A program made the position numbers and the translations under genes. A stretch of 32,700 bases of DNA. Origin: Deltaproteobacteria bacterium. Lineage in GTDB: Bacteria; UBA10199; DSSB01; JACPFA01. Positions within the stretch are counted from its first letter, which is position 1, and every line of letters begins with the position of its first letter. Below, piece by piece: positions 17,141 to 18,940 of this stretch. The DNA lies in contig JACPFA010000019.1 of assembly GCA_016183235.1 (NCBI GenBank), forward strand, positions 1-32,700, given 5' to 3'. A model generated the notes under the pieces. That model saw only the letters and a list, made by a program, of their open reading frames with translations, had not been told where the DNA came from and ran no database searches.

Positions 17141-18663
17141 CCACTAAGACAGGAAAAGTATTTATTGTAGGCTTTGGGCCAGGCGACGAAGGCATGCTTA
17201 CCCAGCGCGCTTGTTATCTGTTACAGCGGGCCGACATTATTTATTATGATTATTTAACCAATGCGGCGTTTTTAGAAAAAATCAATCCACAAGCACAAAA
17301 AGTTTATGTGGGTAAAAAGGGTGGGGGTAAAAAGGTGCCACAAGACGATACCAATGAGGCTTTGATTCGTTCGGCCCAAGCGGGAAAGTTTGTGGTGAGG
17401 TTAAAAGGGGGCGACCCTTTAATTTTTGGGCGAGGGGCCGAAGAGGCTTTGGCTTTGGCGGCCGCCAATTTAGAGTTTGAATTAGTGCCAGGTATTACCA
17501 GTGCCCAGGCGGCGGGTTGGGTGGGCATTCCCTTAACCCATCGTGACTTTAATAGCACCCTGACTTGGGTAACCGGGCATGAAGATCCCAATAAATCGCC
17601 CGATGTTGAAATTAATTGGCAGGCCTTGGCCCAATTAGGGGGGACTTTAGTTATTTACATGGGCATGCATAATCTCGCGGATAATGTTGCCAAACTTATT
17701 CAAGGAGGGATGAATCCTCAAACACCGGTTGCGGTATTGGAATGGTTGACTTACCCTAACCAGCAAGTTTTAGAAGGGACGCTCCAAGAAATTCCTGCTT
17801 TAGTTCAGCAACAAAATTTTCAGGCCCCTGCTGTGGTGGTGATCGGTGACGTTGTGAAATTAAGAAAAAAATTAGATTGGATGAGTAAGAAACCCCTCTA
17901 TGGGCGATTGATTGTAGTTACGCGGGCTCATGCCCAAAGTTCAAGCCTAACCGAACCGCTAAAAGAATTAGGGGCGCAAGTGGTTGAACTTCCCACGTTA
18001 GAAATTTCACCTGTCCAAGATTTAACTAAGGTTGACCAGGCAATTCAACATTTGGCAACTTTTGATTATTTGGTTTTTTCTTCGGTCAATGCGGTAGAAA
18101 TATTTTTTAAAAGGTGCCATGTCTTAAAGTCTGATATTCGTAAGTTGAGTTCTTTAAAAATTGCGGCAGTGGGCAAAAAAACCGCCCAAGCTTTAGAACA
18201 GCATCAACTTTACGCCGAATTTGTGCCCGAGGCTTATTCGGGGGATGATTTGGCGGCTGGGCTGGCTGGCTTCGATATTCATGGTAAAAAAATATTGTTT
18301 CCGCGATCCGCCCAGGCCCGGGCAGAAATTTTAAAACCTTTATTGCAAAGTGGGGCCGAAGTTGAAGAGCTTGTATTGTATGAAAATCATATTCCCGCAG
18401 CTAGTCAGCAACAAGCCAAAACCTTTTTTGAATCTCGGTTGCCTGATTTAATTACGTTCACTTCGGCTTCTTCGGTGAAAAATTTTGTTCAGATCGTGAG
18501 TGGGTTGCCTCAAGTTGAATCCATTAAAAAAATTCCGGCGATTTGTATTGGGCCGATTACGGAGCAGGCAGCGCGCGCTTTGGGATTTGAAAAGATTTTA
18601 GTAACAGAAGAAGCGACCCTAGAAAGCCTAATCGATAAGATAATTAAGTTATTTAACGACTAA
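17137..18663 (+). CDS. cobA-hemD: Bifunctional uroporphyrinogen-III C-methyltransferase / uroporphyrinogen-III synthase
   Basis: Residues about 1-245 are a CobA/SUMT methyltransferase (VGFGPGDEGMLTQRA at the N terminus, VRLKGGDPLIFGRGAEEA, LVPGITSAQAAGWVGIPLTHR), which makes precorrin-2 from uroporphyrinogen III. Residues about 253-508 are a HemD domain (TRAHAQSSSLTEPLKELGAQ, DYLVFSSVNAVE, ITFTSASSVKNFV), which closes hydroxymethylbilane to uroporphyrinogen III. The fusion lets one protein make and use the intermediate, and its coupling to hemC by an ATGA overlap puts three consecutive steps together. Such fusions are common in Firmicutes and delta-type bacteria. The last base of the stop codon is also the first base of a palindromic element. 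Confidence 0.94.
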   Translation: MTTKTGKVFIVGFGPGDEGMLTQRACYLLQRADIIYYDYLTNAAFLEKINPQAQKVYVGKKGGGKKVPQDDTNEALIRSAQAGKFVVRLKGGDPLIFGRGAEEALALAAANLEFELVPGITSAQAAGWVGIPLTHRDFNSTLTWVTGHEDPNKSPDVEINWQALAQLGGTLVIYMGMHNLADNVAKLIQGGMNPQTPVAVLEWLTYPNQQVLEGTLQEIPALVQQQNFQAPAVVVIGDVVKLRKKLDWMSKKPLYGRLIVVTRAHAQSSSLTEPLKELGAQVVELPTLEISPVQDLTKVDQAIQHLATFDYLVFSSVNAVEIFFKRCHVLKSDIRKLSSLKIAAVGKKTAQALEQHQLYAEFVPEAYSGDDLAAGLAGFDIHGKKILFPRSAQARAEILKPLLQSGAEVEELVLYENHIPAASQQQAKTFFESRLPDLITFTSASSVKNFVQIVSGLPQVESIKKIPAICIGPITEQAARALGFEKILVTEEATLESLIDKIIKLFND

Positions 18664-18940
18664 GGTAATGCCTCAGTTTTAGGGGCTTAGCTTTCCTCAA
18701 CCCGTGCTCCGCTCCTCGTATTCGCACTTAAAAAACATTAGTTTGTTTAGAAGTGACTTTGTCATCGCGAGCCCGAAGGGCGTGGCGATCTCCAACATGC
18801 TACGGTGGAGGTTGCTTCGTCGCAGACTCCTCGCAATGACAGCTTTTATAACAAACTATATGTTTTTTAAGTGCTCATGACTCGTCGCTCTCGCACAAAG
18901 GGTTTCAGAAAGCTAAGCCCCTAAAACTGAGGCATTACCT
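18663..18940. repeat. Composite palindromic element between convergent genes, CTTAAAAAACAT core family, copy 1
   Basis: The arms 18663-18695 and 18908-18940 are a perfect 33-bp inverted repeat that begins AGGTAATGCCTCAGTTTT. The next layer pairs imperfectly (CCCGTGCTCCGCTCCTCG against CGACGAGTCATGAGC-type sequence; CTTAAAAAACAT on both sides) and is shared with 23872-24085. The centre holds another palindrome, 18760-18841, with TGTCATCGCGAG and CTCGCAATGACA ends. The left arm starts on the last base of the cobA-hemD stop codon and the right arm contains the stop codon of the opposing gene, so the element can serve as terminator in both directions. Confidence 0.92.
18760..18841. repeat. Nested TCATTGCGAG-family palindrome
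   Basis: TGTCATCGCGAG (18760-18771) and CTCGCAATGACA (18830-18841) are inverted ends with one mismatch. They sit where the related element at 23872-24085 has its small loop, so this copy appears to have been inserted into, or to have replaced, the apical loop of the outer palindrome. It is related to 7026-7139. Confidence 0.8.

Follow-up and report, generated by a model that had tools for sequence, protein, structure and literature searches.

The locus and its genes

The window, i.e. the whole stretch of DNA analysed here (32,700 nt), is a complete contig (C19) of a draft genome of 2.61 Mb in 51 contigs. It carries ordinary bacterial genes: nusA, infB, rbfA, pnp, hemC, a uroporphyrinogen methyltransferase/synthase fusion, lpd, a penicillin-binding protein and ruvB. 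Between two convergent genes lies a 278-bp palindrome, which is touched by the stop codons of both neighbours: on the left, the uroporphyrinogen methyltransferase/synthase fusion (end at 18663), and on the right, an ORF of 1121 aa on the minus strand (18935-22300, end at 18935) without any Pfam match. It consists of three concentric layers, A outside, B (~150 bp) in the middle and C (82 bp) at the centre:

18663-18940, no strand assigned: whole nested palindrome A-B-C, 278 bp, between two convergent genes
18657-18664, plus: left copy of the 8-bp target-site duplication (TSD), CGACTAAG, 6/8 identical to the right copy
18939-18946, plus: right copy of the 8-bp TSD, CTGCTAAG
18665-18695, plus: outer arm A, left terminal inverted repeat, GTAATGCCTCAGTTTTAGGGGCTTAGCTTTC
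18908-18938, minus: outer arm A, right terminal inverted repeat
18697-18754, plus: left half of cassette B, asymmetric box CTCAACCCGTGCTCCGCTCCTCGTATTC and inner stem
18850-18906, plus: right half of cassette B, inner stem and box CTCATGACTCGTCGCTCTCGCACAAAGGGTTTC
18760-18841, plus: guest C, 82-bp REPIN-like doublet in place of the normal B core

The first-pass annotation had described the locus as a palindrome placed inside another palindrome, and this is what we found. The outer arms (41 nt) are 93% complementary, and the single-strand DNA fold reaches -80 kcal/mol versus -31 +/- 3.6 for shuffled sequences (z = -13.5), with none of 200 shuffles being as stable. The C palindrome has the ends TGTCATCGCGAG / CTCGCAATGACA and forms a doublet TGTCATTGCGAG.../...CTCGCAATGACA. 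The usual centre of B, TTAGTGTATTCCCTCTGGTCATACCCTAA, is absent from the element, which indicates that the B core was replaced and not just split; the suggested replacement of a loop is thereby borne out, but what was replaced is a 29-nt hairpin and not a 21-nt loop. Two more copies of the C-in-B nest, ~97% identical and both truncated, are located on contigs C43 and C39, so that the composite itself has been copied. The outer layer matches the terminal 16 bp of 13460-13692, as well as ~10 other A-B elements in the genome.

Other palindromic elements of the window are the following:

23872-24085, minus: comparison element, B with normal 29-nt core and genome-unique outer arms, convergent genes on either side
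13460-13692, plus: A-D element, central C copy with one end lost, TSD TTTTTACT/CTTTTACT (7/8)
7026-7139, plus: solitary C relative, 114 bp, with an extra CCTGAGG..CGAAGG hairpin inside and no surrounding host palindrome
11105-11314, plus: cassette D with genome-unique outer arms
15730-15919, plus: cassette D with S-type outer arms GTCTTTTTGG..
15944-16162, plus: cassette E with T-type outer arms TAAAAAGTTTTACTG.., 24 bp past the preceding element
32503-32700, plus: left part of an A-D palindrome, D box broken by a long, multicopy, IS-like insert at which the contig stops

The element at 23872-24085, to which both the outer and the middle layers had been matched in the first-pass annotation, shares only the middle one: its B cassette runs in the opposite orientation, and its outer arms, ATAAAAAAATAGCAGAAGTAGCCCTAGG, are unrelated to A and found nowhere else in the genome. 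The kinship of 18760-18841 with 7026-7139 was confirmed (same family, with the end TGTCATYGCGAG), and the half copy within 13460-13692 is real, intact versions of that nest being present at L041:7426-7670 and L068:240-321.

Two further palindrome families were noticed. One (TACTAAGGAGTTC.. / TACTAACAAGTTC.., with a central GACGTAGC..GCTACGCC hairpin) occurs at 745-924 of the window and at L073:6250-6414, L075:1195-1372 and L079:13455-13631; the other (GGGACCTCTAAAAAGGGCCCATCTGCA), with a conserved core and no obvious target duplication, at 31747-31895 and 10316-10438 of the window and at L071:12711-12834. An Rfam scan of the window gave no match.

Outer shell A

Terminal inverted repeats, GTAATGCCTCAGTTTT... 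and its variants, are present at both ends of A elements. Among 25 elements read at both ends, the 8-bp sequences flanking the A ends agree at 5.4 of 8 positions on average, as compared to 2.3 for mismatched pairs, and several elements have a TSD of 8/8. The A family thus moved with 8-bp TSDs, and A-ended elements are MITE-like. Elements of the A-D type of 202 bp, with near-identical ends and differing 8-bp TSDs (L036:11143-11344, L084:531-732, L085:624-825), suggest recent activity of the A shell. We considered IS66 as its source on account of the GTAA.. ends and the 8-bp TSD; this candidate was ruled out, as the search of the genome for an IS66 transposase found none.

Cassettes, shells and their combinations

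Layer B, an oriented ~150-bp cassette, comprises asymmetric boxes and a hairpin core of 29 nt; it is present in at least six different outer palindromes. Its conservation of ~95% stops abruptly at the cassette edge, and the outer arms outside it (A, S or unique) are unrelated. Drift of the stems as the sole cause of the differing outer arms was rejected for B on these grounds, the inner stem being ~95% identical and the outer arms unrelated. B is accordingly a repeat residing at the centres of many different palindromes.

A restricted repertoire of layers makes up the long palindromes of this genome. Outer shells are A, S (GTCTTTTCG..), T (TAAAAAG..) or arms unique to a locus; middle cassettes are B, D, E, F and H; cores include C, the normal hairpins of B and E, and the CCTGAGG..CGAAGG hairpin (Q). 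These layers are combined as A-B, A-D, S-B, S-D, S-E, S-F-C, T-D, T-E, T-F-C, unique-B, unique-D and unique-F-C, among others, and at L049:10850-11122 four layers are stacked (S, F, C and a TGTCATCCC repeat within C). Paired cassettes of the B, D, E and F types number 49 (some loci being read twice), and every one is surrounded by an outer palindrome; a few of the 49 have low flank scores, which on inspection a decayed arm explains only in some.

Palindromes with S and T shells also occur as neighbouring, double-hairpin-like pairs 24-31 bp apart with constant outer edges (CAC.. and ..GGTGC), at 15730-16162 of the window and at L042:5915-6384, L043:13069-13512, L066:413-870 and L071:16538-16952.

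The guest C

C is a separate and far more numerous REPIN-like family, which also exists alone. Its 12-nt end TGTCATYGCGAG occurs 375 times as an exact match in the genome, versus 0 for the reversed control. Two inverted REP hairpins and a spacer make up the full unit, of which 52 copies, with a mode of 82 bp, were found in 672 kb. No target-site duplication of 2-12 bp was clearly above control; together with the constant edge, (T)C|TGTC, this agrees with what REPINs would show. C carries the tag TGTC, which is also that of the CGTC class of REPs (PMC3733652), and not the GTAG of REPINs. The stem of the C halves is ATTGC/GCAAT, containing an internal loop, and their tail is CTC, in place of the stem of 8-9 bp, loop of 4-5 nt and CCA tail described for CGTC-REPs; a TGTCATCCCCGCG..GGATCCA family of the same genome fits that description better.

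The phylum was represented by 46 sampled species of one class, the source genome being the sole member of its family among them. Relatives of the class possess C but neither A nor B, and the 11 full C copies in the loci of these relatives that were covered all stand alone, none having palindromic flanks. The B pattern was not found in further genomic and viral contig collections, genomes of the same order (another family) gave no match, and a dihydrolipoyl dehydrogenase query for relatives and empty sites returned matches of only ~35-40% from mixed phyla. A text search of the literature with the motif TCATTGCGAG retrieved no relevant paper.

Probable insertion at palindrome centres

Nesting was analysed in 672 kb (26% of the genome) and in further short stretches. 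The first 396 kb contain 62 long palindromes with a median span of 207 bp, and a looser scan of all 672 kb gave 105. Palindromic flanks were found for 16 of 51 full C copies versus 1.9 expected from mismatched flank pairs, and comparison with the host cassettes showed C abutting host halves in 21 of 52 full copies, some 31 of the 52 lying off any palindrome. The four hosts with C at their centre, B, D, E and F, are unrelated to one another and have differing junctions, and wherever host halves flank C on both sides, the stretch it replaces contains the host midpoint. Host centres account for ~3-9% of the non-coding DNA, from which 1.5-4.5 C copies would be expected there.

Copies and events have, however, to be told apart. 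Many of the 21 host-abutting copies have a junction in common with others, CTTTC[C]GAAAGTCC where the host is D and [C]GCATTTATATTACC where it is E or F, and the 21 reduce to ~4-5 independent junction types. For at least four central events of ~35 independent insertions, P lies between 0.02 and 0.35, depending on how wide the 'centre' is taken to be. Some guests are off-centre: Q sits in the left box of B or E, and the long IS-like insert in the D box.

Palindrome tips are certainly used and elements grow. Growth by nesting, as proposed in the first-pass annotation, is well supported by this analysis and by the enclosure of all 49 cassettes in outer palindromes: one guest in four unrelated hosts, one cassette in six or more outer palindromes, stacks of as many as four layers, and composites that were multiplied. 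Its second proposal, that hairpin loops are preferred targets, is only partly supported; an enrichment of C in other hairpins is evident from the counts of copies but not secure for independent junctions, which are few, and composites were multiplied, cores apparently swapped and guests placed off-centre.

A Y1 transposase gene and a long insert

The genome has a single intact Y1 transposase gene (166 aa, L080:4276-4776), which has a C half on each side, ~40 bp upstream and 12 bp downstream of it. Both half elements have the same orientation within the locus L080:4199-4826 (C16:12198-12825). The ORF is shorter than the 290-380 aa frames of most relatives and matches the NCBIfam REP-associated tyrosine transposase weakly, below the cut-off. 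This locus is possibly a TGTC-class REPtron, and it is of interest because a survey of 2013 did not find any transposase gene with CGTC-class repeats at its flanks (PMC3733652). Given the abundance of C ends, chance flanking is estimated for 1-2% of genes, and no C flanks were seen around 30 Y1 loci of class relatives; the association therefore serves only as a lead. Mobilisation of C by RAYT in general was dropped on account of these relatives and kept as a weak lead.

The long multicopy insert, with the ends ATGGATGACCTC, interrupts the D box (GACC-CTCAT) in palindromes with an A or T shell and is responsible for assembly breaks at 17 contig ends:

left type: 32503-32700 of the window; ends of contigs C33, C22, C48, C29, C4, C43 and C37
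right type: ends of contigs C11, C17 (both ends), C39, C38, C28, C23, C49 and C1

It carries the start of an ORF, MNEGIFFIAIDVDDNLFHG.., of which the first 46 codons only are assembled, and which we take to resemble IS110/IS1111-type transposases. The 46 aa gave no match to Pfam, NCBIfam or PDB, and a search of the genome for PF01548 (IS110) found nothing.

Origin of the nested element

We regard the element at 18663-18940 as a composite non-autonomous mobile palindrome, built of a MITE-like shell A, the shared cassette B and the REPIN-like C that entered the centre of B (probability about 0.72). C would have entered the centre of a B palindrome, whose normal core was lost in favour of a longer hairpin, and the composite would then have been copied to the three loci at which it is now present. 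Recombination between sister palindromes may later have moved cores among outer shells. Guests reside mostly at tips and otherwise in internal loops, which would correspond to the single-stranded parts of a palindrome extruded as a cruciform or as a hairpin on the lagging strand; single-strand tips would suit insertion of the HUH/Y1 type, or repair at the hairpin tip. The A shell presumably inserted by means of a DDE-type transposase.

The most serious alternative is that homologous recombination or gene conversion through shared arms swapped the centre, that C entered B at most once, and that the apparent preference for loops is a side effect. Among C-B and Q-B elements, those sharing a core do differ in outer variants: the C-core element of the window has outer variants, including the derived CAGAAAGC, in common with a Q-core element, and the C-core copy on contig C43 has variants in common with a normal-core element. 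One C-D junction was also found in elements with A and with unique outer arms. With such differing histories of outer and inner layers, sequence comparison makes it likely that centres were exchanged between sister palindromes, besides insertion. As an account of the whole, exchange is nevertheless less probable than insertion: it requires a prior entry of C, which is found in four unrelated hosts with different junctions, and the trees of core versus outer layers have low to moderate branch supports (~0.3-0.99, most of the relevant ones 0.4-0.9).

Somewhat less probable is a reversed order of events, in which the outer arms were produced by mobility itself, through duplication of the target flank in inverted form or through copying outward on a hairpin template, and cassettes are central by construction. 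None of the 49 paired cassettes is naked (a few low flank scores aside), and 13 outer arm pairs of 28-39 bp match their own partner only in the whole genome; empty hairpins that combine arms of this length with a short loop are few (two, L034:2298-2384 and L075:481-536, versus ~12 filled). Two C hosts carry an identical host half on either side of C. Arm changes are, moreover, nearly always double: 39 of 80 pairs in 12 B elements show double changes, with G-U intermediates nearly absent. Complementarity of the arms and the repeated host half fit copying of one arm within the hairpin, and selection fits them equally. On the other hand, the arms end within a few bases of stop codons without entering coding sequence, about half of the unique ones resemble bidirectional terminators (A-tract, GC stem, T-tract), and the repeated shells A, S and T are clearly shared hosts. 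A more specific version, which we consider doubtful, would have a cassette land beside a stop codon and copy the flanking 28-39 bp in inverted form, thus acting as a self-enlarging hairpin transposon.

Still less probable is that these are functional RNA structures of 3' ends (bidirectional terminators or mRNA stabilisers), with stems under selection, centres free to vary and nesting tolerated. Elements often start 0-5 nt past stop codons, convergent gene pairs are over-represented (19/73 versus 44/330, P = 0.012), and pairing is strong with double changes. However, packing against stop codons is also expected of neutral insertions into short intergenic gaps, 12 of the 73 elements lie between divergent genes, the alignment lacks almost all of the G-U intermediates, and A-ended copies have ordinary transposon TSDs.

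That all B palindromes originally had C at their centre, and that it has since disappeared or become shorter in the others, is most improbable: the 375-fold C is mostly unlinked to B, occurs in only 3 of ~16 B copies, these three having near-identical cores, and exists alone as well as in relatives that have neither A nor B, and the normal B core looks homologous to the core of the unrelated cassette E. An assembly artefact by chimeric inverted duplication, conceivable in a draft of 51 contigs several of which end within these repeats, can practically be dismissed, as dozens of loci repeat these layers with differing flanks and TSDs and covarying arms.

Relation to known systems and significance

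REPINs are known as mobile units (PMC3116915). REPINs or REP doublets and BIMEs with their RAYT (PMC3116915, PMC2817692) resemble C in the inverted pair of REP-like hairpins, the high number, the intergenic position and the missing target duplication, and the intact RAYT-like Y1 gene here lies between two C halves. Units of C, however, measure 82 bp, have long stems with bulges and bear a TGTC tag outside the GTAG class, and their link to RAYT is a single locus with no counterpart in relatives. Closer parallels are the CGTC/TGTC-tagged REPs (PMC3733652), with which C shares the TGTC tag, head-to-head dimers and the location of whole dimers inside palindromes. Insertion of this kind was reported for three species: all CGTC-1 dimers of H. 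neapolitanus reside in 41-bp palindromes, and dimers of GTAG-15 in A. variabilis and GTAG-23 in T. roseum are likewise within palindromes (PMC3733652). In these cases there is one palindrome type per family, whereas here one guest occurs in four host types, hosts sit in hosts and many arms are unique.

In the organelles of Volvox carteri, palindromes often sit in one another and the larger products recur at several locations (PMC2670323). Growth of palindromes within palindromes to recurring larger elements is common to both systems, but Volvox has short units in organelle DNA, and the present case concerns a bacterial chromosome with larger cassettes and a TSD-bearing outer shell. Bacterial MITEs (PMC10969869; Coxiella, PMC5896051) are similar to A-ended elements in size (~200 bp), terminal inverted repeats, 8-bp TSDs and non-coding nature; they differ in having an internally deleted insertion sequence as interior, in place of an exchangeable stack of other palindromes. 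REP-targeting insertion sequences (IS1397, ISKpn1, IS621; PMC1525189) also use palindromic repeats as landing sites, in the way the long insert enters D, but are full insertion sequences with a known transposase (PMC1525189), unlike the small, non-coding guests C and B. Nested palindromes are thus known elsewhere, although rarely so deep or so combinatorial; new here are the depth, the combinatorial layers and the unique outer arms, in a variant that also has a TSD-bearing outer shell.

In this genome, small non-coding mobile DNA can build layered elements by insertion into, and recombination within, palindromes, and a small repeat can become part of a larger one that then spreads. With dozens of natural cases in a single genome, one can ask whether insertion is directed to hairpin tips; the case also bears on a question of the REP field, that of the mobilisation of TGTC/CGTC-tagged repeats. 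Should the unique outer arms prove to be by-products of insertion, this would represent a new route to palindromes, in which each inverted-copy insertion would build a new palindrome layer and thereby a host for the next guest.
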